From positions 1 to 64,000 of the forward strand of contig CANGUU010000005.1 of assembly GCA_947457195.1 (NCBI GenBank): a stretch of 64,000 nt of DNA, written 5' to 3'. Origin of the DNA: Gammaproteobacteria bacterium (GTDB taxonomy: Bacteria; Pseudomonadota; Gammaproteobacteria; Pseudomonadales; Pseudohongiellaceae). Below, piece after piece: positions 8,925 to 22,971 of the stretch (the first letter of the stretch is position 1; each line of letters begins with the position of its first letter). Below the pieces are notes generated by a model that saw only the letters and a program-made list of their open reading frames with translations, did no database searches and was not told where the DNA came from. The position numbers and the translations under genes are program-made.

Positions 8925-10379
8925 TCAGTCGACCAGCTTGATCCACTCGCCGGGCTTGGGTTCACCGGTCGGGTAGTCCCCGTTCATGAGCCGCAGCATG
9001 TCTTCCGGAGACTCCGGCAGGCGGCTGTTGCGGGCCAGATCCGCCCAGCGGCGACCGTCGGCCTGCACCCAGGTGATCTTCAGCGGGTCGGCAAACACTC
9101 CCTCGTTGCGGGCGATGGGGCGGAAGCTCTTGATGCTATCGAGCAGCGCCTTTTGTGACGCTTCGTCGGCTGCAGCGCTGGTCATGATGAAGGCGCGGCC
9201 GTTGAAGTACACCACGGCGATGCGTTCCTGCGTTTCGGGACGCAGACCGGTGTAGCCCAGCAGTCCGAACTGCCGCAATTCCTCGGCCTGTTGCACGTTG
9301 GCAATGCCGAGGTTGTCGCGGATGAACAGGCGCGGCTCGAGGTTTTGCTGCAGGCGCTGGGTTTCTACTTTGAACGTTCCTGTGCTGCCGGCGGGAGCGC
9401 TGGCCGTCATGGTGGTAGTCGTTTCTTCGATGGTCCACGCTGGCGGAAGCACGACCGTGTAGCCCAGCAGCTTCTGGTAGTAGCGGTTGCGACTTTCGGC
9501 GCCAGTCATGTTCTGCAGCGAAGGACCCACCAGCAGATCCGTGGTGGCCTCCCGAAACGCGGCATTGTCGAGTTCAGGCACCGTGCCGCCCTGCATGGTG
9601 GCGCTCTGGGCCACAGCCTGCTGCAGACGCGTGTCGTTGCGGGGGTGCGTGGCGAACAGGCCATGGTAGGCAGGCCCCTTGTTGGAGTTCTTCTTCATGA
9701 AGTCCTCCTGGTTCTTCAGCACGCCGATGACTTCCACCATGGCATTGGGGTCATAGCCCGCCTTGAGCAGGTACTCGGCGCCTAGGGCATCCGCCTCCAG
9801 CTCCATGTCACGACCGTAGCCGCTGATGAGCGCGCCACCGAACAGGCTGGCGGTTTCACCGAGCACGGAGGTGCCGGTGGTCACCACGGAAGCGACCGCT
9901 ACCGCGGTCGACAGCACGTTGGAGGTGCGCGCCGCCGTCTGCTGCCGCACGGCATGCCGCGCCGTGATGTGGCCGATCTCGTGGCCGAGCACGGCCGCCA
10001 GTTGCGCCTCGCTGGTGAGGTAGTCGAGCAAGCCGCGGTTGACGTACACGTAGCCACCGGGCAGCGCGAAGGCGTTGATGTCGGGGCTGTCGATGATGGT
10101 GAAGTGGAAAGTCAGGTCCGGGCGATGCGAGATGGCCGCCAGTTTCTGCCCGATCTTTTCCACGTACGCCTGCAGCTTGGCATCCTGATAGAGGGGGGAG
10201 TCCTTGACGAGTTTCTCATGCTCTTCCTTGCCGACCTCCAGTTCGCGCTTCTCCGACATCAGCACGAAGTTGGACCCGCCGGTGGGGTTGGAGGCACAAC
10301 CGGCAAGGGCGACGACCCCGCCCAGCAGCAGCGCGCCGAGGGCCTGGGAACATGCATGCAGGGGCAGTGAAATTCTCAT
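8925..10379 (-). CDS. M48 family metalloprotease lipoprotein
   Basis: Protein of 484 residues with a lipoprotein signal peptide ending in the lipobox LAGC (Cys 28). It has a zinc-protease core: HEIGH at residues 133-137 and the third-ligand motif ELEADALG near 195. This is the LoiP/BepA-like group of periplasmic, membrane-tethered M48 proteases that act on outer-membrane proteins. A second half (about 270-484) ends with a LRLMNG...PGEWIKLV motif common in longer members of the family. It lies downstream of, and in the same orientation as, the large envelope cluster, with a 55-base gap to the preceding lipoprotein gene. It could process cluster components (inference). Confidence 0.9.
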   Translation of the reverse strand: MRISLPLHACSQALGALLLGGVVALAGCASNPTGGSNFVLMSEKRELEVGKEEHEKLVKDSPLYQDAKLQAYVEKIGQKLAAISHRPDLTFHFTIIDSPDINAFALPGGYVYVNRGLLDYLTSEAQLAAVLGHEIGHITARHAVRQQTAARTSNVLSTAVAVASVVTTGTSVLGETASLFGGALISGYGRDMELEADALGAEYLLKAGYDPNAMVEVIGVLKNQEDFMKKNSNKGPAYHGLFATHPRNDTRLQQAVAQSATMQGGTVPELDNAAFREATTDLLVGPSLQNMTGAESRNRYYQKLLGYTVVLPPAWTIEETTTTMTASAPAGSTGTFKVETQRLQQNLEPRLFIRDNLGIANVQQAEELRQFGLLGYTGLRPETQERIAVVYFNGRAFIMTSAAADEASQKALLDSIKSFRPIARNEGVFADPLKITWVQADGRRWADLARNSRLPESPEDMLRLMNGDYPTGEPKPGEWIKLVD

Positions 10380-10434: not shown

Positions 10435-11097
10435 TCAGGTACCGCTTTCCGGGTTGCCGCCGATAAATTGCTTCAACTGGTTGCCAAGGCCGCTGCAGGC
10501 GTTGGCCTCCACGCGGGCGATGAGCGGAATGGGCACCACGACGGCGGGCATGTAGGACTGGCCGGTGGCGTCGGTGCTGATCGAGCCGACCGACTCCAGT
10601 GTGTCGAGGTCCCACACCTCGGCCTCGAAATTGGAATCGTCCGTCCAGGTGCCGAAGCCGAAGCAGCCGCCGCCCCCCGGACCAATGGTGCAGGACATGG
10701 TGCCGGAACTCTCCGAGCGACGGGTTAGCCCGTCCAGCCACACGATGTATTCGATGCCGTACTCGGCCAGACGCTGCTTGGCTTGGTCGACTTCCATCAG
10801 CTGCTTGAGGTGGCTGGTGCGCATCGGCGCCGTTCGCGGCTCGAAGAAGGGAAACATGGCATCGAGGAATTCGCGCTCCGGCACCACGCGAATGCCGTTC
10901 TCACCGTTCTGCACGACGTTGGCCACGCACTCGACGAAGTTGCCCTCGGTCTCGTAGTTGTTGTTCTGGCGTCGCCCCAGGATGACGATGGACTCGCCAT
11001 CGCTGATGCTGGTGGTTGCCTGACGGAATTCGTCGATCTCCGTCGTGGTACACGCGGTCAGCAGCAGCAGGCAGAGCACGGGCAACAGACGATGCAT
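10435..11097 (-). CDS. Putative lipoprotein of unknown function
   Basis: About 220 residues. The start at ATG 11097 gives a short signal peptide (MHRLLPVLCLLLLTAC) with Cys as the lipidation site, so an N-terminal lipoprotein. The mature part starts with a Thr-rich segment and SISDGESIVILGRR, like the head of a nucleotide- or cofactor-free beta domain, and ends in ALANACSGLGNQLKQF-type sequence. I recognise no named domain. The gene sits 8 bases after the stop of the preceding lipoprotein gene, so the two are probably co-expressed. Confidence 0.75.
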   Translation of the reverse strand: MHRLLPVLCLLLLTACTTTEIDEFRQATTSISDGESIVILGRRQNNNYETEGNFVECVANVVQNGENGIRVVPEREFLDAMFPFFEPRTAPMRTSHLKQLMEVDQAKQRLAEYGIEYIVWLDGLTRRSESSGTMSCTIGPGGGGCFGFGTWTDDSNFEAEVWDLDTLESVGSISTDATGQSYMPAVVVPIPLIARVEANACSGLGNQLKQFIGGNPESGT

Positions 11098-11105
11098 GGG
11101 ACACC

Positions 11106-11831
11106 TCACTCCAAAGCGACGTTGTTGGCTTTCAACCATTCGTTGACTTCCGGCACGTCCTTGAAGCCGAGAGTGAAGCTGGCGGCGAGGTCGCGCATGG
11201 CGACGACGGCAGCGCCCTGCACGCCGGCATCCACGGTCTGCAGGTTTTCCTGCGGTGCCTTGCCGTAGGCGGTCATCACCCAGTCGGCGATGTACTCCCC
11301 ATTCGGATTCGACAGCTTCATGTTGTACTTCATCCAGATCTCGTAAACCTTCAGCTTGGTCTTCTGCGGCAGGCCCAGCTGGAATTCGGCGATGGACGGT
11401 ACGAAGACGGCATCCACCCCGGCGTCGGCCGCCTCAGGCGACGGCAGTTCGACCACCTTGGCGAACAGCGCCGGCAACAGCGTGTTGAACAGCTCCAGCT
11501 GCGACGCACCGCCCTGCACGATGTACTCGTCGTCGCCGGTATTGTCGTTGATTTCGGTGTACGAGAAGTTGCGCAGTTCGTCGCTGTAGTAGACCCCAAC
11601 GGTGAGGGGAAGCTTGCCGACCAGTGGCGACGGGTAGTCACCGTCGATGACGATGGTGCTCGCCGCACAGCCGGCGAGCAGGCTGGTCAGCAGCAAAGGC
11701 AGGAGTGGGGGCAGGCGACCGCGCAGGTTCAACCCGCTGGCAAGGCCGCCGCCAGCCGGGGCAGGAGCCGGGTGAACGGCGCGAAGCGCTCCAAGGAAAT
11801 CCACAACAGTCGACGCAACGGACCTGATCAT
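11106..11831 (-). CDS. Putative lipoprotein, downstream end of vWA/ExbB cluster
   Basis: About 241 residues from ATG 11831, with lipobox LLAGC at Cys 54. The region before the lipobox is unusually long. A TTG at 11732 would place the Cys about 20 residues in, as expected for a normal lipoprotein signal, so the real start may be there. The mature part has LPLTVGVYYSDELRNF, as in periplasmic lipoproteins of uncharacterised envelope operons. No enzymatic motif is seen. It follows the second vWA gene after 87 bases and belongs to the same transcription direction. Confidence 0.72.
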   Translation of the reverse strand: MIRSVASTVVDFLGALRAVHPAPAPAGGGLASGLNLRGRLPPLLPLLLTSLLAGCAASTIVIDGDYPSPLVGKLPLTVGVYYSDELRNFSYTEINDNTGDDEYIVQGGASQLELFNTLLPALFAKVVELPSPEAADAGVDAVFVPSIAEFQLGLPQKTKLKVYEIWMKYNMKLSNPNGEYIADWVMTAYGKAPQENLQTVDAGVQGAAVVAMRDLAASFTLGFKDVPEVNEWLKANNVALE

Positions 11832-11918
11832 CAGTGCCAACCCAGCCTTGTTTGTACCGGTCGCGCGTACGGCCGGCCAATCAATGGTACTCCGCTCACG
11901 ACGACTGCCAACCTGCTT

Positions 11919-12914
11919 TCAGTAAAAATCATTGAGCCCCACGAATGTGCCACCGTTCTTGCGGGCCAACTCGCGCATCAGCGCAGCAAAGCGCCGACCC
12001 GTTTCCTGGTAGCGCGGCGGCTGCGCAAACTGTACGGGAAAGCCTATCGCGTGGATGCGTACCAGGCGCTCGCCGGTCGCGGTGGCGGTATTGATGCGGT
12101 CCACCGTGTTGACGACGTCGCGGATGGAGTTGCCGGTGAAATCGTCGCCCAGCACGTAAATACTGATCTTCTTGCCCGGATCGTAGAACTCGCGGATGGC
12201 GGCAATGATGCCTTCCACCGGACTGCTGTCGCTGAAGGGATTCCAGGTGCGCAGCCGCTGCAAGATGGCCTGGCGCCGCGCCGGCGTGTCCTCGATCCAC
12301 TGACCGCGGAAGGAGCTGAACATGTAGTCGCCTTCGTCGTTCATGACCTGAATGCCCTTGAGCTGCGGGTACACTTCCAGGGTTTCCGTGACCACCTGCA
12401 GCAAGCGGTTCCAGCTGTAGTTGAACATGGAGCCGGAAGTGTCGATCACGAACACCACGTATTCACTGTCGACCGGGACGCCACCCACCGAGTCCGACTG
12501 CACCGAACGCTGCTGGCTCTCCTGCAGGCGTCGCATTTCGTCGGTGAGTGACTGACGGGCCAGCGCCAGCTGGCCGGCTTCCGTGTCGATATCCATGGCC
12601 TGGTCGCTACGTGCTTCCAGCCGCTTCTGTACCTCGGCCAGTTCCGTCTCGAGGCGGGCGATACGCTGCGTGTACTGCGACAGCTGCTCCTGCTTGGCAT
12701 TCAGGTCGCGGTTGAAGATGTTGGTTTCCCCGCGGATTTCGAACAGCTGCTTTTGCAGGTCGAGAATGCTGCCGCCGCGTGGGTCCTCCGCTACTTCGAT
12801 GGCGCCTTCCGGCTGGTTCCGTACCAGCATGAACAGCAGGATCATGGCCCCGAAGCCGCAGCACATCACGTCCAGGTAAGACATGCTGAAAGTGGTGATT
12901 TCGCGGCGTGCCAT
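11919..12914 (-). CDS. vWA protein with ExbD/TolR-like membrane anchor (paralogue 2)
   Basis: 331 residues. A single N-terminal helix (about 12-30) carries the motif YLDVMCCGFGAMILLF with Asp 15. A predicted coiled coil follows at about 51-135, then a von Willebrand A domain with a MIDAS motif DTSGS at 158-162 and a late metal-site Asp in YVLGDDF. The helix motif matches the Asp-containing helix of ExbD/TolR (FIDVML-type), the stator helix that pairs with ExbB/TolQ. The vWA domain would be periplasmic by this topology. The gene is 9 bases downstream of its paralogue. Role inferred: moving stalk of an ion-driven motor. Confidence 0.82.
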   Translation of the reverse strand: MARREITTFSMSYLDVMCCGFGAMILLFMLVRNQPEGAIEVAEDPRGGSILDLQKQLFEIRGETNIFNRDLNAKQEQLSQYTQRIARLETELAEVQKRLEARSDQAMDIDTEAGQLALARQSLTDEMRRLQESQQRSVQSDSVGGVPVDSEYVVFVIDTSGSMFNYSWNRLLQVVTETLEVYPQLKGIQVMNDEGDYMFSSFRGQWIEDTPARRQAILQRLRTWNPFSDSSPVEGIIAAIREFYDPGKKISIYVLGDDFTGNSIRDVVNTVDRINTATATGERLVRIHAIGFPVQFAQPPRYQETGRRFAALMRELARKNGGTFVGLNDFY

Positions 12915-12923
12915 GGCAGCTCC

Positions 12924-14030
12924 CTAGGGCCAGTCCGACGACGGTGTGAGGAAGGAGCCACCAGTGTTCACCGACAGCTGCCAGTACAGCGAGGCGGCCA
13001 TGGGATCGCCCTCGAGTGGCTCGAGGATGACGTTGATCGGTACGCCCTCCGGCAATTCCTGCAGCGCCCGCTCGAAGATGCGTTCGCGATCCCGTCCAGT
13101 CACCAGACCCTTGGCGGCTCCACGGTTTTCCAGCGTCGGCAAGCCGTCGGTGATCAGGAAGATGTTGTCCGGCTTCGGGTCCAGCTGCTTGATGGCTACG
13201 AAGAGGTTTTCGAGATTGGTACCCTCGATCGGTATGGTGCTCTCGAGGTTGCTGATGGCCTGATTCAGCTGCTCTTCGTCGGCCACTTCCAGCCAGCTGC
13301 CTTCGGTGCCGGGGATCAGCGACTGCACCTCGTTGCTGAACGTGTAGATCTGGTACTGGCTCGGCGGGGGCAGCCGTGCTGTCAGCCAGTCGACGGTCTT
13401 GCGGGCCTGTTCCCACTTGGGGGCCTTCAGCTTGTCGCTGTCGCTCATGTTGCGGCGGCGGATGATGTTGACGATGGTGTTGTCGAGCATCGAGGCCGAC
13501 TTGTCGAGCAGGATGAGGATGCGATTGCCGCCGAGAATCAATCCGGTCAGGTACTGGCGGTTGCCCTCACCGATAAAGGCGCGGATGTTGTTGCCGGACT
13601 GCAGCTCCTCCTCGGCCCGCAGCTTGGCGAGCTCGGCTTCCAGCGTGGCGATCTCCGTTTTCAGCTTGGCGATGGTTTCCGCCTCCGTGTCGCTTTCTGA
13701 TTCCAGCAGCACGAGTTCGGCACGCAGCGGGTCGAGCTGCTGCTGGATGCGGCTGGCCAGCCCCTGAGCAACGGCCAGCCGGTCGTCGACATCCGACAGC
13801 GTGTTGCGCAGCCGCACCAGGCCTTGCTGTCCCTCGAGGATTTCCTCTTCCAGCAGCTCCACCTCGGCGGCTGCCGGCGCGTTCTGCACGGCCTGCAGCG
13901 CGCTGCTGTGGTCGGTGATGAGAAACAGCAGCACCACCGCGCCGAAGCCGCAGGAAATCACGTCGAGGAAGGACAGACTGACCGGGTCGAAGTTGCGTGA
14001 ACTTTTCTTGCCCTTGCTGCCGCCTGCCAT
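12924..14030 (-). CDS. vWA protein with ExbD/TolR-like membrane anchor (paralogue 1)
   Basis: 368 residues with the same plan as the next gene: a basic N-terminus, one helix with FLDVISCGFGAVVLLF (Asp 23), a long Glu/Leu-rich coiled coil at about 56-142, and a vWA domain with a DKSAS MIDAS motif at 176-180, a Thr in IEGTN and an Asp in ITDGLP. Both paralogues share LDVxxCGFGAxxLLF, so the Asp is conserved. ExbD/TolR work as dimers inside an ExbB/TolQ pentamer; two different paralogues suggest a heterodimer (inference). It lies 3 bases after the Hsp70-like gene. Confidence 0.83.
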   Translation of the reverse strand: MAGGSKGKKSSRNFDPVSLSFLDVISCGFGAVVLLFLITDHSSALQAVQNAPAAAEVELLEEEILEGQQGLVRLRNTLSDVDDRLAVAQGLASRIQQQLDPLRAELVLLESESDTEAETIAKLKTEIATLEAELAKLRAEEELQSGNNIRAFIGEGNRQYLTGLILGGNRILILLDKSASMLDNTIVNIIRRRNMSDSDKLKAPKWEQARKTVDWLTARLPPPSQYQIYTFSNEVQSLIPGTEGSWLEVADEEQLNQAISNLESTIPIEGTNLENLFVAIKQLDPKPDNIFLITDGLPTLENRGAAKGLVTGRDRERIFERALQELPEGVPINVILEPLEGDPMAASLYWQLSVNTGGSFLTPSSDWP

Positions 14031-14033
14031 GGG

Positions 14034-15329
14034 CTACTCCACGCTGATCAGCAGCAGCTGGTGAGTGCCGGCCTGCAGGCAGTCACCGGGTTTCAGCCAG
14101 CAGCCTGCCGTGGCCGGGTCGTCGTTGCAGGTGAGGTCGCCGGCGATCTGCTCGAGCAGTACGCCGCGCGGTCCGCGCTGCAGCACCAGGCTGCCGCGCC
14201 AGCCCGGCAGACCCAGCACGCGGGCCAGATCGCTCTGGCCGGCGGGCTCGCCGGCCAGCGTGCGCCCGAGAGGCAGTGCATAGGCCTGATGGTCCAGAAG
14301 TAAATGCGTCGGCTGCCGCGCGGGGGCGGCACCTGCCGCGGCGGCCGGCTGCGTTGCCAGCGGCAGGCGACTGACGAAGCCCGGGCTGTCCCCCGGCTTC
14401 AACAGCAGCTCCCGGTAGCGCTCCGCCGCCAGAAGGCCGGCATGCTCGTCGAGGCCCTGAATGCCGGGGAAGGCGGCGGTCAATCCCGGCAGCGCCAGGT
14501 GCCCGGCCTGCGTAAACAGTCCGGAGTCGGCCGTGCGCAGCGCGGCCAGCTCGCGCGCGATGCGCGCATACAGCGTCTTGCTGCGTTCACAGAACATGTC
14601 GTACGTCACGCGCGCCTGGAAGCTGCTGCCCTTGTGGTTGATTTCGAGCTGCAGTTCGCCGCTGCGCGCGCTGGCAGCCAGCCAGACGGGCAGCTGGTTG
14701 GCGATGTACTGCTCGGTTTCTGCACTGTGCGTGGGGTCGAAGCGGCTTTGCTGCAGGAAGGCATCCGCCACTACGCTGCTCCAGGCGTCGTGCAAAGCCA
14801 GCGATCCGGCCGCCGGTATCTGGCTCAGCTTTTCGCGCTGCAGGCTGCCGTCCACTTCCCGGTAGCAGGACAGCACAGCCTGGTGCAGTTGCAGGTCCAG
14901 CACGATGCAGTCCGGTGCTTCGCTGGCCGCGGCCAGCAACAGACCGTGATCGATCAGGGCCAGGGTGCGGAAGGGGCAGGGTTTGAGAATACCAAGCAGC
15001 ACCGACAGCTGCGCGCGCGTATAGGACGCCGGCGTCGCCACGAGAACACCGGCCCCGAGCTCCTGTTCCTGCGTCAACAGCTGCAGGTGGCGGTAGGCAA
15101 GGTCGGCATGGTGCCGGAAGGTCTTGGTCTTGATGGCCAGCGGATCCAGACTGAGCTGCTGCCAGAACTGGTGGAAGTTCTGTCGCGGATGCAGGCGCGC
15201 CACCTGTCGGGCGGCCTCGCCGAACAGCGGCTCGGCGCCCGCCACGTTGGCAAAGCCCGGGCTGGACGCCAGCACCCGCTGTGCGGATCGGAGAGTGACG
15301 CGCGAATCGTGCAACTCAAGCAGGTTCAC
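14034..15329 (-). CDS. Degenerate Hsp70/actin-fold protein with FHA-like C-terminus
   Basis: 431 residues, no signal peptide, so cytoplasmic. Residues about 1-290 follow the order of Hsp70-type blocks: a GEAARQVARL...QFWQQL segment, VLVATPASYTRAQLS (compare ITVPAYFNDAQR in Hsp70), an ALIDHGLLLAAA block, and IVLDLQLHQAVLSCYR where Hsp70 has DLGGGT. The phosphate loops have lost their Gly/Thr residues, so ATP binding is doubtful. The last about 95 residues (LLLDHQAYALPLGRT...LKPGDCLQAGTHQLLLISV) look like a degenerate forkhead-associated beta-sandwich. The start overlaps the channel gene stop by 4 bases. Both domain calls are inference from motif spacing. Confidence 0.62.
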   Translation of the reverse strand: MNLLELHDSRVTLRSAQRVLASSPGFANVAGAEPLFGEAARQVARLHPRQNFHQFWQQLSLDPLAIKTKTFRHHADLAYRHLQLLTQEQELGAGVLVATPASYTRAQLSVLLGILKPCPFRTLALIDHGLLLAAASEAPDCIVLDLQLHQAVLSCYREVDGSLQREKLSQIPAAGSLALHDAWSSVVADAFLQQSRFDPTHSAETEQYIANQLPVWLAASARSGELQLEINHKGSSFQARVTYDMFCERSKTLYARIARELAALRTADSGLFTQAGHLALPGLTAAFPGIQGLDEHAGLLAAERYRELLLKPGDSPGFVSRLPLATQPAAAAGAAPARQPTHLLLDHQAYALPLGRTLAGEPAGQSDLARVLGLPGWRGSLVLQRGPRGVLLEQIAGDLTCNDDPATAGCWLKPGDCLQAGTHQLLLISVE

Positions 15330-16141
15330 GGCTCATTCCGCTCCGGCACCTGCAGGTGGCGGATCAGGTGGTTGTCACAGTAGTTCTTGGTGTTGAGCAC
15401 CAGGCGATCCTGCATCAGCTGCAGTTGGTACAGCAGGAACATGATGAAAATGCTCACCACCAGCGCGATCAGCGTGGAGTTGAAGGCCACGCCCAGGCTC
15501 GTGGTCACGCCCATCACGTCGCCCTGCACGGCCTGCTGCGCCTGCGAAAGCGCCTGGCCGATACCGCGTACCGTGCCGATGAATCCGATGGACGGAATCG
15601 CCCAGGCGATGTAGCGCACGATGGTGAGCTCGTTGTCGAGCCGATTGGCTTCGTTGTCGCAGACATCACCGATCACGCTGGAGACGTCGGCAATGTTGCG
15701 GGTCGCGCTGAAGCGCTGCAGACCGGCCAGCAGTGCGCGCGGCAGCAGGAATTCACGCTCGCCGAGCGGCAGTGCCTGCAAGGGCCGGGAGAAGTCCCGC
15801 GCGTCCTGCGGCAGGATGCTCATGCCCTCGGCGGAGTTGAGCAGCGAGCGATCGAGCAGCTTGCTCTCGTTCATGTTGCGGCGGATCTTGTGGCCGAGGA
15901 TGGCGAAGGCCCACAGCGTGAGGATCACGCAGGATTCCTGCTCGTAGTCCTTGAGGATGACGTAGAAGGACTGCGGCGGGACGTAATTCGGGTCCTGCTC
16001 GTACATGGCGGCCTGCTGCGCCAGGATGGCATCGGAGTTGGGACGGATCACCGCCACGTACAGCGCATGCACCACGATGAGCGCGATGAACAGCGAGAAA
16101 ACCTGGTAGATGAAGTCCGAGATCAATCCTTGTTGTTTCAT
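15326..16141 (-). CDS. MotA/TolQ/ExbB-type proton channel protein
   Basis: 271 residues with four hydrophobic helices (about 12-30, 68-84, 175-198, 215-240). The last two carry the family core: IPSIGFIGTVRGIGQAL and GVAFNSTLIALVVSIF, with Thr 190 and Ser/Thr 222-223 at the positions where ExbB/TolQ have pore residues. The first loop is periplasmic and the long middle loop cytoplasmic, as in ExbB. It is not next to a normal exbD, tolR or motB; the vWA genes two to three places downstream supply the only plausible partners. It lies 15 bases after a small secreted-protein gene and overlaps the Hsp70-like gene by 4. Confidence 0.88.
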   Translation of the reverse strand: MKQQGLISDFIYQVFSLFIALIVVHALYVAVIRPNSDAILAQQAAMYEQDPNYVPPQSFYVILKDYEQESCVILTLWAFAILGHKIRRNMNESKLLDRSLLNSAEGMSILPQDARDFSRPLQALPLGEREFLLPRALLAGLQRFSATRNIADVSSVIGDVCDNEANRLDNELTIVRYIAWAIPSIGFIGTVRGIGQALSQAQQAVQGDVMGVTTSLGVAFNSTLIALVVSIFIMFLLYQLQLMQDRLVLNTKNYCDNHLIRHLQVPERNEP

Positions 16142-16156: not shown

Positions 16157-16480
16157 TCAGATGTCAGCGGGAAAGGATACCGAGAGGTCTTCGGAGATCT
16201 CGACGGTGGGAACGAAGGTGTCGTTGGCGGTCATGGTACCCGGCGTCTGATCTTCTTCGCCGTCAAGAGCGGGGCCGACCGCCGCCGCGCCCTCGGCAGC
16301 CGGGTTGGCCGCGGAGGCGGGGCCCGCCCCGGCGGCTGCGGCGACCTCTGGGGTGGTGGCAGGGCCCGGGGAGCCTGCCCCGGTGCCGCTCGGGCCAGGG
16401 GCAGAGGGCAGTTCGGCGGCCCACAGCGCCACCGGCAGAATAACGGCCAGCAACAGCGGGAACCGGCGTGGGGTTCGCAT
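16157..16480 (-). CDS. Small secreted Ala/Pro/Gly-rich protein
   Basis: 107 residues. The start at ATG 16480 lies one base beyond the stop of the FGE-fold gene (16482-16484) and gives a signal peptide (RRFPLLLAVILPVALWA). The mature part is a low-complexity Ala/Gly/Pro stretch and a distinct acidic C-terminus (DTFVPTVEISEDLSVSFP). No domain is recognised. The tail motif, rather than the linker, is likely the functional part, perhaps a docking peptide for a cluster partner (inference). Confidence 0.7.
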   Translation of the reverse strand: MRTPRRFPLLLAVILPVALWAAELPSAPGPSGTGAGSPGPATTPEVAAAAGAGPASAANPAAEGAAAVGPALDGEEDQTPGTMTANDTFVPTVEISEDLSVSFPADI

Positions 16481-16481
16481 G

Positions 16482-18566
16482 TCAGTCTCCGAGATAGCGA
16501 GCCACGCGGAAGCCGACATCGTCCCGGCTATCGTTGTGGTAGTCGCGGTAGGAGAGCCGCAGTTCGGTCACCGTGCCATGCGCCCACGACGACCCCTTGA
16601 TCACGTGGTAGGTCCCGGTGGCGGGGCCCAGCGGGTTTTCCTGGACCTCGTTGCCCACGGTTCCGGATGTGCCATACCAGTCGTGTACCCACTCGGCGAC
16701 GTTGCCGCCAATGTCGAAAAAGCCGTTGGCGTTGGCGGCAAAACTCGCCACTGGCGCACTACCCATGTAGCCGTCGTCGTAGTCGAGCAGGATGCGGGCG
16801 AGCATGTTGCCGGCTGAAATGTCGGCGTAGTTGCCGTGGTTGGCTGGCGGCGGCAGTTCGGCGCCCCAGGGGAAGCGTAGCAGGGAAGCCGGGTCGCCGT
16901 TGACCCGCGCCGCCCAGTCCCATTCGGCTTCGGTCGGCAGCCGGTAACCGGTGCTTTCTGCGTTGACGCCCGTGACCTTGTCGCCTTCCACCACGTAGAA
17001 CGCCGGCAAGCCTTCCTGCACGCTGAGCCAGTTGCAGAAGCGGGCAGCCGCGTCCCAGGTCACACGCACCACCGGCTGGCTGGGGTTGGCCAGCGTGCGC
17101 CCCTCCAGTACGCCGGAACTGTGTTCGGCGTCGAAGCGCGCAAACTGCTCGTTGGTGACTTCGGTCAGCGACAGATAGAAGGGCTTGGTGAGACTGACGT
17201 TGCGCAGCACTTCGTTGGCCTGGCGCCCCGCCTCTCGGCGCGAGGCGCCCAGCGTGAATGAGCCCGGGTAGATCAGCTTGAGCTTTTGACCCGCCGCCGA
17301 AACGATCTCCGGCTTGATGTTCTCGATGCGCTGTTGCTCCAGGGTCTTCAGGCTGACATCGAGCCGCTGCTCGAGGCCCGGACGCGAGATGAACGTGGTG
17401 GAGAACGACACGTGGCCCTCGGCACGGATTTCAATGGTCTGGCTGGCCGCCAGCAGTTCCAGGCGTTGGTTGGCCTTGCCCTTTAGCTCCCCGTTCACAA
17501 AGACGTCGGCGTCGGCCGGCGTGGCGGAGATCTGCACCGCGCTGGTGATCGGGTCCAGCGCCACGGTGACGGCGCTTTCGTCTGCCGCTGTGGTGCGTAC
17601 CTGGCGCCGTGCTTCCCGGTAGCCGTTCAGGAAGAACACCACCTCATGGGCGCGGCCCGGCCGCAGACTCAGTTCGAGCGGCGTCCGCCCGCGGAAACTG
17701 CCGTCCACCGTGATGTTGGCGCCGCTTGGCGTGGAGCGCAGCGTCACCAGTCCATCCGCTGGTTCGAGCGCGATCATCGGCACGCTGAGCGGCTGTCTGG
17801 CTACCACGGCGAGCGTACTGGTCCAGGCCTTGTGTGCGGCCAGTTTGACGATCACCTCGTGCTCGCCGGCCAGCACCTCGGTGCGCAGCGGTGTCTTGCC
17901 GATTTCCATGTCATCGATGGTGACAGTGGCGCCGGCCGGTGTGCTGGTCATTTCGACCTCGGCCCAGGCCGGCAGCAGCGCCACGTCGAGACTCACTGGC
18001 TGGCGGCGGCCTTCGATGCTGAGTGGCGCGGAGTAGTCTTCATAACGATCGAGACGCACATCCAGCACGTGCTCGCCGGCAGCCACCTCGGCGTTGCTGA
18101 GCGGTGTCTTGCCGATCACGGCCCCGTCGATGCTGACTTCGGCCCCTTCGAGGGCGCCAGTGCTGAGCGAAAGCAGGCCCGGCAGCGGTGTCATGGCGAT
18201 GGCATAGGTCTGCGCCTGCTGCTCGCCGATGCGTAGGGCTTGCCGGTAGTCGTAGTAGCCTTCGGCGGTGACGATCACGTCTATATCGCCTTCGCGGATG
18301 AGATAGCGTGGACCGATGCGCACCGCCAGACCGCCGTCGATGGCGATGGCGCTGTCGAGGGGTCGCACGTCGAAGAACACCGACCGCGCGGTCAGCACAT
18401 ACCAGCCGGTCGCCATGAACAGGGCGAAGGCAGCACCAAGAGCCAGCCTCACCGGGTTCAGTTGCAGGCGGCGCTGCTGCCGAACCTGCTCGAGGGGGAC
18501 GAAGTCGACTGCTTCCAGCGGGGCGTCGTCCTGCGCTGCATCACTCGGTCGGTTCAGGTCTGCCAT
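16482..18566 (-). CDS. PEGA-repeat membrane protein with FGE/SUMF-fold domain
   Basis: 694 residues. A cytoplasmic N-terminus and one membrane helix (about 41-59) are followed by four PEGA repeats and one degenerate one (about 63-406), recognisable by TPxGAxVxIDG-type cores at 140, 208, 279 and 349. An FGE-sulfatase (SUMF1) fold spans about 425-694, with EVTNEQFARF, RLPTEAEWDWAAR, GNVAEWVHDW and a closing GFRVAR. True formylglycine-generating enzymes carry a Cys pair near the last motif. Here that segment reads GSSWAHGTVTELRLSYR with no Cys, so it is probably a structural or ligand-binding domain. Confidence 0.88.
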   Translation of the reverse strand: MADLNRPSDAAQDDAPLEAVDFVPLEQVRQQRRLQLNPVRLALGAAFALFMATGWYVLTARSVFFDVRPLDSAIAIDGGLAVRIGPRYLIREGDIDVIVTAEGYYDYRQALRIGEQQAQTYAIAMTPLPGLLSLSTGALEGAEVSIDGAVIGKTPLSNAEVAAGEHVLDVRLDRYEDYSAPLSIEGRRQPVSLDVALLPAWAEVEMTSTPAGATVTIDDMEIGKTPLRTEVLAGEHEVIVKLAAHKAWTSTLAVVARQPLSVPMIALEPADGLVTLRSTPSGANITVDGSFRGRTPLELSLRPGRAHEVVFFLNGYREARRQVRTTAADESAVTVALDPITSAVQISATPADADVFVNGELKGKANQRLELLAASQTIEIRAEGHVSFSTTFISRPGLEQRLDVSLKTLEQQRIENIKPEIVSAAGQKLKLIYPGSFTLGASRREAGRQANEVLRNVSLTKPFYLSLTEVTNEQFARFDAEHSSGVLEGRTLANPSQPVVRVTWDAAARFCNWLSVQEGLPAFYVVEGDKVTGVNAESTGYRLPTEAEWDWAARVNGDPASLLRFPWGAELPPPANHGNYADISAGNMLARILLDYDDGYMGSAPVASFAANANGFFDIGGNVAEWVHDWYGTSGTVGNEVQENPLGPATGTYHVIKGSSWAHGTVTELRLSYRDYHNDSRDDVGFRVARYLGD

Positions 18567-18575
18567 GCTGCTGCC

Positions 18576-20078
18576 TTAGATGCTTTCGGTGCAGGCCACC
18601 GTCAGCTGTACCGGTTGGCCGTCGAGCCCGACGGTGAATTCCTGCCGTACGTCACGGAAGCCCTGCCGCACGCCGATCGCCACGTAGGTGCCGGGCAGTA
18701 GGTCGAGGCTGTGCGCGCTGATCAGACCCAGCGCCCCCACCCCCTGCAAGGTCACCTGGGTTTGCCCGTCGGATAGCAGGGTAACGCGTATGGGTACCTG
18801 GGCGCGCGTCAGCAAATTGTCCACTTGTTCGAGTTGCTGCTGCAGGCGGGGGCCGGGGACGAGCAGGTTGCGGGCATCCTGCACCACCTGCACGGTCTGG
18901 GCATGCACAGCCGGGTCACCGAGGCGCAGAGGGTTGGCCAGGGTAGCCACGAGGAAGTCGTCGAGATTGTTGCGGCTCTGCGCTCGGCGCTCACCCTCCT
19001 GGGCACTGACGAGGTTGGGATCGATCACCAGCGCTGCCTTCCACTCGGCCAGCGCCGCCGCCCAGCTTTCTGCGGCCTCGGCCGCCGCCGCCGCCGCGAG
19101 GTGTACCGTGATGGCGCTGAGGGTCTTCTGATCCTTGGCCTGTTGCAGCGCCGCGCTGACCTCGGCCGACCCGGGTCGCAGCGCCGCCGCTTGTTCGAAG
19201 GCCTGGCTGGCGCCGTCGGGATCACCGGCCTGCAAAGCGGTAAAACCACGCGACATGACGGCAGCGAAATTGGCATTGGCACGGGCCGTGGCGATACGGG
19301 CAAGTGCCTGCGCTGCCACGGCGTTGCCCCCATCGAGACGCTGCGCTTCCTCGAATTTGCTGCGCGCCTCCTCCAGCGAACCGGCCTCCTCGAGCTGTTG
19401 GCCGGCGCTCAGCAGGGCCAGCACCTGGTCCAACACGCGGGACTTGCCCAGCCCGTCCATGGCCTCGCCATTGCCCGGATCCAGCAGCAGCGCGATCTCG
19501 AAGGCGGCGGTGGCCGTGGTGGAGTCGCCGGCAGCCAGCGCGGCCTGGCCGGCGGCAAGTTTTTCGGCCAGCACGGTTCCGCTCTGCCCGGCGATGACCT
19601 GCAGGGCCTGCAGTCCTTGCTGATAGGCGGCCAGCGCCTGCTCGTAGCGCTGGGCACCGTAGGCTTCGTCACCTTGCTTGGCTGTTGCCAGTGCGGCAGC
19701 AAAGGCGTCGGCCGCCCAGGCCTGCACCTGCTGTTTTTCGAGCTGGCCCTGCAGGTCCAGCAGAGGATCGAGCACTTCCTGTGCCTGCTGGCGGATACGT
19801 AGCCGCTGGGCCGCCTCGAAGGGTGCCGGCTCGGCCGCCGCCGTGGCCTCCGTGGGCGCAAGCACGACCGGCACCGGGGGTGCCACCGGCTGCACCAGCG
19901 ACGGCAGCAGGAAAACGACGCCGAGGGTGAGGACCAGCAAGAGCCCGAAAATGCCCCACAGCACCTTGTTGTTCTTCTGCTCGACCTGCTGCAACTCCTG
20001 CTGGTCGCCGAAGCCGAGAGGGGGCGACTCGAAACGCGGCCGCTCGGGTGGCGCGCTGGGTAGTGCGGGATCGGTCAT
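18576..20078 (-). CDS. Membrane-anchored TPR protein
   Basis: 500 residues. One membrane helix (about 39-58) leads into an Ala/Gln-rich helical periplasmic region with TPR-like repeats (EAYGAQRYEQALAAYQQGL, AAGDSTTATAAFEIALLLDPGN, GDPDGASQAFEQAAALRPGS, WAAALAEWKAALVIDPN). The C-terminal about 75 residues are a beta-rich domain ending in RQGFRDVRQEFTVG...LTVACTESI, a PEGA-like module that recalls the adjacent gene product. It probably acts as a periplasmic scaffold. It lies 6 bases after the lipoprotein gene upstream and 9 bases before the PEGA/FGE gene. Confidence 0.82.
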   Translation of the reverse strand: MTDPALPSAPPERPRFESPPLGFGDQQELQQVEQKNNKVLWGIFGLLLVLTLGVVFLLPSLVQPVAPPVPVVLAPTEATAAAEPAPFEAAQRLRIRQQAQEVLDPLLDLQGQLEKQQVQAWAADAFAAALATAKQGDEAYGAQRYEQALAAYQQGLQALQVIAGQSGTVLAEKLAAGQAALAAGDSTTATAAFEIALLLDPGNGEAMDGLGKSRVLDQVLALLSAGQQLEEAGSLEEARSKFEEAQRLDGGNAVAAQALARIATARANANFAAVMSRGFTALQAGDPDGASQAFEQAAALRPGSAEVSAALQQAKDQKTLSAITVHLAAAAAAEAAESWAAALAEWKAALVIDPNLVSAQEGERRAQSRNNLDDFLVATLANPLRLGDPAVHAQTVQVVQDARNLLVPGPRLQQQLEQVDNLLTRAQVPIRVTLLSDGQTQVTLQGVGALGLISAHSLDLLPGTYVAIGVRQGFRDVRQEFTVGLDGQPVQLTVACTESI

Positions 20079-20084
20079 GCGACG

Positions 20085-21350
20085 TTACTGTCCGGCAGAA
20101 GTCGGTGGAGGGGCGCTGGCAGGCTGGGCTGCTGCCGGCGTGCCCTCCATTTCGGCCGCGTAGATCTCGGCCAGGATTTCACGCCACTGGGCGTACTGCT
20201 CCTGCACGCTGCCCGTGAGGGTCACCACGCGCTCATCCAGCTCGATGGTGTGCGGCGCAATCTCGCTTTCGAGGGAATCGCCCAATTCCGCAAGCGCTTC
20301 CAGCTGCATCTGGGCTTCGTCGCGCTTGGCGAAAGCATCCTTGATGAGGAAGCCCCCGCCGAACAGCCCGCCGTAAGCGGAAAACTGCACGGCATTGTTG
20401 CTGCTCTGTGACGCTGCCAGACCACCGACGATAGCCGCCACGCCCAGCACCATGTTGCGGCGCGCCTTGGCCTGCAGTTTGTCGAACTTCATGACTTCTT
20501 CGTAGCTCTCGCGGCGGAACTCCATGTAGGGCCCCTGCATCTGGCGCACAAAGTTGTCGTAGTAGTCCTGCAGAGCATCCACGTACTGGTAATCGCGATC
20601 GCGGATACCGTCGATGCGCTGCAGCATGGGGTCCTCCTCGGCCGGTAGACGGGCCAGTACGAGTCCACCCTGCCGGTCCGTGGTGACGTACTGATCGAAG
20701 GCCTGGGGCGCAAAACGCCGTGCAAACTGGATGCGGGACAGCGTTCGGATGGTCAGCAATTGCTGGCGATCCAGATTCTGCTTGCGGTAATCGAGGATGT
20801 CATTGGCGATGCGGTTGTAGAGCCCTTGGAAGGGATCGTCGGCACGCTTGAGGCGGGGGTCGTAGCTGAACTTGCTGACCACTTCCTCGTACTCTTTTTC
20901 GATCCACACTTTGCCGGTCACGTCCCGCACGGTCACCTTCACCACCATGGTCTCACCGTCACTTTGCAGGATGGTGCCGCCAACGCTGACGTCGATGCCG
21001 CTGTGCTCATTGGGATTGACGCGCACCACGCCCCACGCCCCGCTGCTCTGCATGGTCTGGGCCAGGTGATAGGCCGCGAACTGCGTTTCCGCCATGCGCA
21101 CGTCGGCAAAGGTCAGCTCTTCGCGATTGTTCGGTACTTCGTCGAGCCCGGGCTGGAAGATGCCGATCGCCACGTCGAGCAATTCCTCTTCGGGAATGCT
21201 CACCGACTCGGCGACCAGTGGCGCTACCGTGGTGGTCTTGACGGTCTGCGTGCTGCAGCCGCTCAGCACGGCCAGCAGGACCAGGGTTACGGCCGGCAGC
21301 ACCCGCTGCCAGGGCCGGACGGATCGAGACTGCGCGTTTTTCATGCTCAT
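20085..21350 (-). CDS. Putative lipoprotein of the vWA/ExbB cluster
   Basis: About 421 residues from ATG 21350 (21344 is an equally near ATG). The signal peptide ends in the lipobox VLSGC. The first half (DVAIGIFQPGLDEVP...FADVRMAETQFAAYHLAQTMQSSGAWGVVRV) looks like a beta domain of the lipoprotein class that senses or buffers envelope stress. A DPFQGLYNRIANDILDYR block and a Gly-rich hydrophobic segment (about 325-355) follow. The tail is Pro/Ala-rich. I recognise no enzyme. It is adjacent to the poly-Ser lipoprotein gene and to the TPR gene, and was likely recruited as the outer-membrane end of the cluster. Confidence 0.78.
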   Translation of the reverse strand: MSMKNAQSRSVRPWQRVLPAVTLVLLAVLSGCSTQTVKTTTVAPLVAESVSIPEEELLDVAIGIFQPGLDEVPNNREELTFADVRMAETQFAAYHLAQTMQSSGAWGVVRVNPNEHSGIDVSVGGTILQSDGETMVVKVTVRDVTGKVWIEKEYEEVVSKFSYDPRLKRADDPFQGLYNRIANDILDYRKQNLDRQQLLTIRTLSRIQFARRFAPQAFDQYVTTDRQGGLVLARLPAEEDPMLQRIDGIRDRDYQYVDALQDYYDNFVRQMQGPYMEFRRESYEEVMKFDKLQAKARRNMVLGVAAIVGGLAASQSSNNAVQFSAYGGLFGGGFLIKDAFAKRDEAQMQLEALAELGDSLESEIAPHTIELDERVVTLTGSVQEQYAQWREILAEIYAAEMEGTPAAAQPASAPPPTSAGQ

Positions 21351-21386
21351 GGTCGTATCCAACCTCGATTGACTCAACGTTGTGGA

Positions 21387-22874
21387 CTACTTGGTCAGAC
21401 CTGTGTACTTGCGGTATTCATCCCAGAGTTTTTCGCGCAGCGCGGGATCCGGCTCGCGCATGGCCGCTTCGCGCAGCTGGCGCGCCACCACGTCATCGTC
21501 GTCACCGCTCGGGATGTCGGCCGGTGGGGCGAAGGTAGGCTGATTCTGGTTGGAGTAGTCGCCCTGACGTGCTGCCGCACCACCGGGCATGGTGCCATTG
21601 CCGCCGGCACCGCTGGTGGAGGCCGAGGCCACAGCGATGGTGCCCTCGCCGAAACTGCCGTCGGCGCCTTCCTGGCCTGCTTCGCCGCCGGCACCACCGG
21701 CACCGCCGGTCCCCATCACCTGGCTACCGGCTTCGTTGGCATCTTTTTCGGCCTTCTGCCGTTCGGCGATGATCATGCCGTCGAAGGTGCCGTAGCTCTC
21801 TTCGAGCTTGGCATCGAGCACGGCCCGCCGCTCGGCGGCGGTCAGTACGCCCCCGTTGCGGCCCAGACCACCGAACGGGTCATTGCCGCTGAAGGTACCG
21901 CTGCCCGCGCCACCGGCTGCGCCGGGGGTTCCGCGTTGGCCTGCGGCGCCCACGGTCTGGGTACCGGGCGCCCCGCTGCTGCCCGGCAGACCACTGGTGC
22001 CCCGCTGCCCTGCCGAAGCGCCGGGCAGGCTGCCGCCACTCTGGGCTCCGGGGCTGCCAGGGGTTCCGGCTGGCCCGGGATTGCCGCCGGCGGCGCCCGG
22101 CAACTGGCCGGCTGTTGGCAGCGGTACTCCGTTCACCGCAACGTTGACGTCGACTCCACGCTGACCCTGTGGCCCCTGCGAGCCCGGCGCCGAAGCGGAG
22201 CCGGCGCTGCCGGGCTGACCCGGGCTACCACTGCTGGACGCCGTGCTGCCTGGCATACCCGGAGTGCCACTGCTGGACGCTGTGCTGCCTGGCATACCTG
22301 GACTGCCGGGCATGCCCTGTTGGCCAGACGACGGCGAGCCGCCTGAGGCACCGCCCTGCGAAGCACTGCTCTGGGACGAGCCCGAGCGGGAAGACGAGGA
22401 AGGTGACGAAGATGAGGAAGGTGAAGAAGATGAGGCGGTCGAGGAAGAACTGCTGCTGGAGGAACTGCTGGAACTGGACGAACTGCTGGAACTGGACGAA
22501 CTACTGGAACTGGACGAACTACTGGAACTGGAAGAGCTGCTCGAACTACTCGAACTGGAGCTCGAGGAGGACGATGCGGTGGAGCTCTGCGTGGAGCGCG
22601 AGCTGGGTGAACTGCTGCTCTGCGACGGCGACGAAGGCGAGCTCGGTGAGCTGGGGGAGGACGAGGCGCTCGGCATGGACGGCGAAGAGCTACTGCTCGA
22701 GCTGCTTTGCTGCTGCTCGAGACAGCCACCGAGCAACAACCCTGTGCTGATGGCCAGCGCCAAGGCGGTGCGCGACAGGATCGACGACTGCACCGACCAC
22801 ACCGGCTTGGCTGCCGCAGTCGCCCTTGCGCTGCGGTGGGCGGGCTTGCTGCTGACGTGGTTGCGTTCGCTCAT
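21387..22874 (-). CDS. Poly-serine lipoprotein with collagen-like region
   Basis: About 495 residues from ATG 22874 (a GTG sits one codon earlier; GAGG lies 7 bases before the ATG). The signal peptide ends in lipobox LLGGC. Next come a Ser/Pro-rich stretch and 45 consecutive Ser (encoded at 22440-22574), then about 170 residues rich in Gly-Pro with broken Gly-X-Y pattern. The acidic C-terminal domain contains GVLTAAERRAVLDAKLEESYGTFDGMI and ends REKLWDEYRKYTG. A long flexible spacer from the outer membrane to a globular end is the simplest reading. First gene of the cluster. Confidence 0.85.
   Translation of the reverse strand: MSERNHVSSKPAHRSARATAAAKPVWSVQSSILSRTALALAISTGLLLGGCLEQQQSSSSSSSSPSMPSASSSPSSPSSPSSPSQSSSSPSSRSTQSSTASSSSSSSSSSSSSSSSSSSSSSSSSSSSSSSSSSSSSSSSSSSSSTASSSSPSSSSSPSSSSRSGSSQSSASQGGASGGSPSSGQQGMPGSPGMPGSTASSSGTPGMPGSTASSSGSPGQPGSAGSASAPGSQGPQGQRGVDVNVAVNGVPLPTAGQLPGAAGGNPGPAGTPGSPGAQSGGSLPGASAGQRGTSGLPGSSGAPGTQTVGAAGQRGTPGAAGGAGSGTFSGNDPFGGLGRNGGVLTAAERRAVLDAKLEESYGTFDGMIIAERQKAEKDANEAGSQVMGTGGAGGAGGEAGQEGADGSFGEGTIAVASASTSGAGGNGTMPGGAAARQGDYSNQNQPTFAPPADIPSGDDDDVVARQLREAAMREPDPALREKLWDEYRKYTGLTK
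22228..22305 (-). repeat. 39-bp tandem repeat, two copies, in poly-Ser lipoprotein gene
   Basis: Two direct copies of 39 bases (22228-22266 and 22267-22305), differing at a few positions. Each encodes 13 residues of the form GMPGSTASSSGxP within the collagen-like region. The repeat unit is in frame, so copy-number change would keep the reading frame. Confidence 0.8.
22440..22574 (-). repeat. Poly-serine tract, 45 codons, with 18-bp repeats
   Basis: All 45 codons are Ser, written with mixed TCC, TCG, TCT, AGC and AGT codons. Within it four 18-base units lie at 22462-22479, 22480-22497, 22498-22515 and 22516-22533, the last two carrying a c-to-a change. The repeats explain an antisense Leu/Glu-rich reading frame. 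Slippage in units of six Ser is plausible. Confidence 0.9.
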
Positions 22875-22971
22875 CACCTTGCCTCATTGGGGGGCCAGAC
22901 TCCGCACCTGCCGAAAGGAGTACGGATGCGTGTAAAGTCCGGATTCACTGCACGCTTATCGAGCCGCTATG

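Follow-up and report, generated by a model that had tools for sequence, protein, structure and literature searches.

The MotAB, ExbBD, and TolQR motors of the inner membrane have a 5:2 arrangement, in which a channel of the MotA/TolQ/ExbB family with characteristic threonines is combined with axle proteins that carry one helix with an aspartate. MotA has four membrane helices, and TolQ and ExbB have three. A motor with another kind of axle has already been published as a prediction: PMC12204202 (June 2025), in its section 8, predicts TolQ with paired von Willebrand A (vWA) proteins bearing a conserved Asp and presents AF3 models. The earlier note on the present DNA knew of no described motor with vWA stators; this is out of date because PMC12204202 already predicts such a core. 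A term search for von Willebrand and vWA in the main text of PMC12505986, PMC9389320, and PMC12905483 gave no occurrence. In this study, a locus in a gammaproteobacterial contig was compared with the described systems; the window is the whole stretch of 64,000 nucleotides that was analysed.

By its description in PMC12204202, the closest system is the TPH-vWA family (the homologues of an Idiomarina protein), which has a tolQ-like gene, no tolR or exbD, two different vWA proteins, and a transpore helix with a conserved Asp. The locus studied here has the same traits. Its tolQ-like gene lies beside the vWA genes, in the window and by the gene order of relatives and class-level loci, with no exbD there as judged in the window and the contig; its vWA pair is heterologous, and the helix Asp and the channel Thr are conserved. 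It differs in its FGE/PEGA, Hsp70-like, and FPxDI proteins, which section 8 and the legend of Fig. 4c,d of PMC12204202 do not mention for TPH-vWA. The likeness to MotAB, ExbBD, and TolQR lies in the channel family, the single axle helix with its Asp, and the channel threonines; in contrast to these motors, a vWA domain replaces the OmpA-like or ExbD/TolR fold, and two different axle genes accompany each channel gene.

Two adjoining vWA genes on the minus strand were the starting point, and their coordinates and motifs had been given correctly. vWA1 (12924..14030; 368 aa; LDVISCGFGAVVLLF, Asp23) and vWA2 (11919..12914; 331 aa; LDVMCCGFGAMILLF, Asp15) are the candidate axles 1 and 2, each composed of an N-terminal helix, a coiled coil, and a vWA domain. 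Membrane segments were searched by a Kyte-Doolittle scan (19 residues, cut 1.6). Each protein has a single segment, FLDVISCGFGAVVLLFLIT at residues 21-39 of vWA1 (13914..13970, minus strand) and YLDVMCCGFGAMILLFMLV at residues 13-31 of vWA2 (12822..12878, minus strand), and the LDVxxCGFGAxxLLF helix is common to both, as proposed. The two proteins are paralogues by sequence comparison. With vWA1 as the query, vWA2 was found in the same genome at E 5.4e-6 over residues 11-132, and the helix profiles of the two matched with 99.65% probability (E 5.2e-25). vWA1 and vWA2 separate on a tree of 62 and 61 sequences with support 1.0, in agreement with the idea of two different paralogues; a flag 'vWA2 monophyletic: False' came up once the tree had been rooted on vWA2, and the support of 1.0 is that of the vWA1 split. 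Pfam VWA_2 matched vWA1 above the cut-off (E 3.7e-8) and vWA2 below it (E 0.014). vWA2 is recognised as a predicted vWA domain through its fold: Foldseek matches of its AF2 model (mean pLDDT 63.1, 8 sequences; helix region in pLDDT blocks 33-44) were solved vWA domains, including CMG2 and CLCA1 at E 5.0e-6, and the top row was a chain under a virus capsid entry (E 1.3e-6). A plasmid search with vWA1 gave no match.

Homologues were collected from 37 relatives with vWA1 (40 stretches) and, beyond these, from 28 genomes of the class. The helix Asp was counted with a pattern that was free at the Asp position and loosely fixed at its neighbours, and the window was included. The pattern matched 64/69 vWA1 rows and 63/64 vWA2 rows. 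Asp was found in 64/64 vWA1 and 63/63 vWA2 rows with the helix; variation at this position, which would have spoken against a stator, was not seen among the homologues. Six rows (five vWA1, one vWA2) lacked a pattern match. Two of these, L192 and L165, carry the Asp on inspection, and the other four are fragments without it (L188, with two pieces of a broken gene, L027, and L031).

For a profile comparison, each helix was cut from 14 residues before its Asp to 24 residues after it. These segments were aligned by hhalign with the corresponding segments of 36 ExbD/TolR rows, some of them repeated because two loci overlap, and of 30/31 MotB rows. Significance was judged from 200 column shuffles per comparison and from reversed profiles. 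Against MotB, the vWA1, vWA2, and pooled helices scored 17.6, 20.5, and 19.2, values reached by 0, 0, and 1 of 200 shuffles, respectively; the one pooled shuffle outscored the real profile (22.8 vs 19.2). The reversed profiles scored 10.2, 11.5, and 11.8. The positive control, ExbD against MotB, scored 19.4 (0/200 shuffles; reversed 13.7). Against ExbD, vWA1 scored 14.1 (5/200 shuffles at or above this value), vWA2 11.1 (23/200), and the pooled helices 12.9 (7/200). The hhalign probability was 44% for MotB (control 46%) and at most 6% for ExbD. Asp falls on Asp in the six alignments printed, a register favoured by cutting the segments around the Asp, with an equal bias in the ExbD-MotB control. 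Of the proposed similarity of the helix to ExbD/TolR profiles, the stator-type similarity held, in that each vWA helix matches MotB (0/200 each), and the ExbD part proved weak (5/200, 23/200). A stator-type helix nearer to MotB than to ExbD is thus suggested from one short helix; since it matches MotB at the level of the control and ExbD weakly, 'MotB-like' is a safer name than 'ExbD/TolR'. Membership of ExbD/TolR (PF02472) was rejected, as PF02472 was not among the Pfam families shown for either vWA protein (for vWA2, the best 25 of 27), and the vWA genes were not among the matches listed in PF02472 searches of the genome.

CGFGA is as conserved as the Asp but is not matched by anything in the MotB or ExbD rows, and the conserved Asp could instead serve helix packing. 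The specificity of CGFGA to this vWA family and the weak ExbD match would suit a helix that became stator-like by convergence, with the vWA proteins anchored close to the channel as a pair for chaperoning or assembly. We consider this very improbable, given the unvarying Asp in both paralogues, a MotB match equal to that of the positive control, and the co-retention of the vWA pair with the channel.

The neighbouring channel gene (15326..16141, minus strand) is assigned to the MotA/TolQ/ExbB family by PF01618 (E 4.7e-15, 55.9 bits, cut-off 22.9); its product is a candidate pentamer. Channel T190 and T223 are invariant (61/61 rows) and align with Thr residues in L068 and L070 of the same genome, which are taken for TolQ and ExbB from their sequences. 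NCBIfam TolQ (28.8 bits, cut-off 221) and ExbB2 (25.4 bits, cut-off 135) matched far below their cut-offs, and the channel profile had no match at E 0.01 among solved structures. The window protein alone has two hydropathy segments; among 34 rows, 22 have three and 9 have four. Mean hydropathy over 61 channel homologues peaks at 2.65, 2.28, 1.58, and 1.36, and then at 0.36. A channel with four helices would suit MotA, and one with three would suit TolQ/ExbB. Zorya shares a MotA-family channel (ZorA/ZorB) and was rejected: among the 10 proteins scanned, the only Zorya match was a weak one to ZorA (17.8 bits, E 3.2e-4).

The genome holds seven MotA_ExbB, four ExbD, and one MotB_plug matches. The contig of the channel has no ExbD match, the four PF02472 matches being on other contigs, and the remaining six MotA_ExbB matches each lie about 4 kb or less from an ExbD or MotB match. 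On contig C29 of G000 (L066, L067, L071-L073), another cluster contains three MotA_ExbB and two ExbD matches, and two channel proteins there carry long N-terminal extensions. An ExbD encoded elsewhere might fill the pore, with the vWA proteins as TolA/TonB-like force transducers on the side of the channel. The four ExbD matches elsewhere in the genome would allow this, and PMC12204202 describes a side-binding vWA family; that family, however, has an SHLS motif and tolR-like neighbours in the account given there. Two further points argue against such transducers, namely a contig without an ExbD match and a helix whose profile is MotB-like and whose Asp is unvarying, and we regard them as improbable.

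The periplasmic heads were said to be vWA domains with MIDAS sites, and their residues are largely conserved, most strictly in vWA2. Counts refer to rows having a letter at the position. In vWA1, the DKSAS motif (residues 176-180; 13491..13505, minus strand) has D176 in 64/65 and S178 and S180 in 65/65 rows, and D295 is kept in 64/65. The weak point is T271, which varies (T in 55/64). In vWA2, D158, S160, and S162 of the DTSGS motif (residues 158-162; 12429..12443, minus strand) are each found in 63/63 rows, S230 in 61/62, and D257 in 62/62. The locus L184 (G244) has Ala at both D176 and T271 of vWA1, an intact vWA2, the tail IPSDM at the end of the small protein described below, and its channel on another contig. 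The joint occurrence of an altered vWA1 MIDAS and a variant tail in G244 is suggestive, as a single case.

Presence of the genes was scored at E 1e-3 for vWA and E 1e-20 for the channel. Among 57 relatives including the own genome, both genes occurred in 36, vWA only in two, the channel only in none, and neither in 19. The two vWA-only genomes, G002 and G008, are incomplete (73% and 81% complete). vWA1 and vWA2 were found together in 37/37 relatives taken for having vWA1 and in 25/28 class-level loci, the other three of which end at a contig edge. In a sample of the class, vWA1 was present in 29/370 genomes, own included; the system is therefore sporadic. Rearrangements were also seen. In G001, G006, and G007 (L024, L029, L030), the channel is diverged and on the opposite strand, and the vWA, PEGA-FGE, and TPR genes stay together; these channels scored 205-210 bits, against 300-517 in other loci, with one cut copy at 264. 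The channel of G005 is diverged and on another contig, that of G244 is on another contig, and in G134 and G331 the channel comes after vWA2. In all five genomes of genus g3 (5/5), the PEGA-FGE gene lies elsewhere, nearly full-length and with 58-59% identity. The gene set holds through rearrangements. The sequences, their conservation, and this co-retention are directly supported by the data.

In order of transcription, the genes encode a collagen-like lipoprotein, a lipoprotein, a TPR protein, a PEGA-FGE protein, a small protein, the channel, an Hsp70-like protein, vWA1, vWA2, and two lipoproteins, all on the minus strand. The lipoproteins were called from lipoboxes read in the sequence. The first (21387..22877; LLGGC) is Ser-rich and collagen-like, and in most complete loci the cluster opens with its homologue. 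The second (20085..21377; lipobox LSGC) is conserved, and the two downstream lipoproteins (11106..11840, LLAGC; 10435..11139, LLTAC) are neighbours in the family. The TPR protein (18576..20078; Pfam TPR_2 E 4.4e-11) has one N-terminal membrane helix at residues 39-57 and a Pro/Ala-rich linker. A gene for an M48-type peptidase, named from its sequence, lies at 8925-10379; a homologue is present in 32/40 relative loci and in one of them has the opposite orientation. Sites resembling promoters or terminators were in no excess over shuffles.

The gene at 16482..18566 encodes a single-helix protein with PEGA repeats (Pfam PEGA E 2.9e-47) and a C-terminal FGE-type domain (FGE-sulfatase E 1.5e-39). 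Active formylglycine-generating enzymes need a Cys in their C-terminal motif. No Cys was found in the first 22 residues of this motif in 44/44 rows with the motif, of 54, and an active enzyme is therefore unlikely. A repurposed, non-enzymatic FGE fold is reported for PorK of T9SS, beside a proton-motive-force-dependent motor (PMC12421860). An FGE-type periplasmic partner is common to the locus and the T9SS PorLM motor with its PorKN ring; the likeness is one of parts and does not extend to a shown relation of the motor proteins. T9SS membership was rejected, the best NCBIfam match of the FGE-type protein being GldK at 101.6 bits, far short of the cut-off (350). No description of an FGE-PEGA partner for a vWA motor was found in the open-licence literature searched.

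The Hsp70-like protein (14034..15329) has no membrane helix, and its gene lies between the channel and vWA1. Its AF2 model (pLDDT 77.7, 7 sequences) matched Hsp70 proteins in Foldseek (best E 1.1e-13), and its C-terminal part is strand-rich. On reading of its sequence, it seems to have no glycine-rich phosphate motifs. It is present in 15/28 class-level loci and is not constant in distant genomes; it is therefore considered accessory.

The small protein (16157..16480, minus strand) occupies the slot before the channel. As read from the sequence, it has a signal-like N-terminus and ends in ...VSFPADI, with the C-terminal FPxDI tail, here FPADI, at 16160..16174. Such tails were scanned with FP.[DE][IVL], a pattern derived from the same loci, at the ends of ORFs of 40 or more open codons; the 68 loci supplied 10,518 such ends, the scope being those loci and not whole genomes. 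There were 58 matches in 58/68 loci, every one in the same slot and none at other ORF ends; this slot immediately precedes the channel gene or, in loci with a displaced channel, the Hsp70-like gene. In six of the ten loci with no match, the slot is missing or cut (L027, L031, L038, L044, L051, L063). Variant tails were seen in L062 (YPVDI), L187 (MPSDI), and L184 (IPSDM), and no tail was seen in the broken locus L188. All 61 tails retain the Asp. L190-L192 are the most distant loci, and the protein end that can be seen in them has a short stretch and then SLNSPASFPVDI-like residues. A literature text search for FPVDI gave matches with titles on other subjects, and the wider gene set including the tail protein was not found in the open-licence literature searched.

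The conserved MIDAS and a dedicated small secreted protein would suit ligand gating, so that the locus might encode an ion-gated sensor or valve instead of a motor, in which the vWA heads and the FPxDI ligand gate the channel upon envelope disturbance; the force-receiving partner, moreover, is a candidate that we infer. Against this, the clustered coiled-coil, TPR, and lipoprotein genes would have a mechanical look, and those MotA/TolQ/ExbB-family channels that have these threonines and have been characterised are motors. A sensor or valve is unlikely in our judgement, though less so than side-bound transducers.

From the sequences, we consider an ion-driven motor of the 5:2 type in the inner membrane to be the probable product of the locus: a channel pentamer would move the vWA heterodimer that it surrounds, and the heterodimer would act on envelope partners. 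The pore position, the 5:2 assembly, the movement, and the passage of force to envelope partners from the same locus are parts that we infer. A MotA/TolQ/ExbB-family pentamer would surround the heterodimer of vWA1 and vWA2, each entering the pore by one helix, and the two-stalk stoichiometry would fit two different axle paralogues. Ions would be relayed by the unvarying Asp, which lies near the cytoplasmic end of each helix and would face the invariant Thr residues of the channel. The stalk would consist of the coiled coils of vWA1 and vWA2, and the vWA domains with their MIDAS sites would be the two periplasmic heads gripping a partner. Force may pass to the PEGA protein with its FGE-type domain, the TPR protein, and the lipoproteins. 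The free C-terminal FPxDI of the small protein would be a likely peptide ligand; as a guess, it docks either in the FGE-type cleft or, through its Asp, on a MIDAS. A bolder and rather doubtful extension is that the locus encodes a complete, undescribed envelope-spanning machine, in which the vWA-heterodimer motor works on a periplasmic assembly of outer-membrane lipoproteins and a repurposed FGE-type domain, comparable to PorK in the T9SS, and the secreted FPxDI peptide makes or releases the coupling by docking on a vWA MIDAS or the FGE-type cleft.

If the motor is real, vWA domains would add one more kind to the working heads carried by the MotA/TolQ/ExbB engine, and the MIDAS sites would allow joint tests of force and metal-dependent grip. 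Because the idea of a vWA axle is already in print, the new leverage comes from the gene set, with its partners that remain together despite rearrangements and its short, nearly invariant C-terminal tail that is testable as a peptide for binding to each candidate partner.
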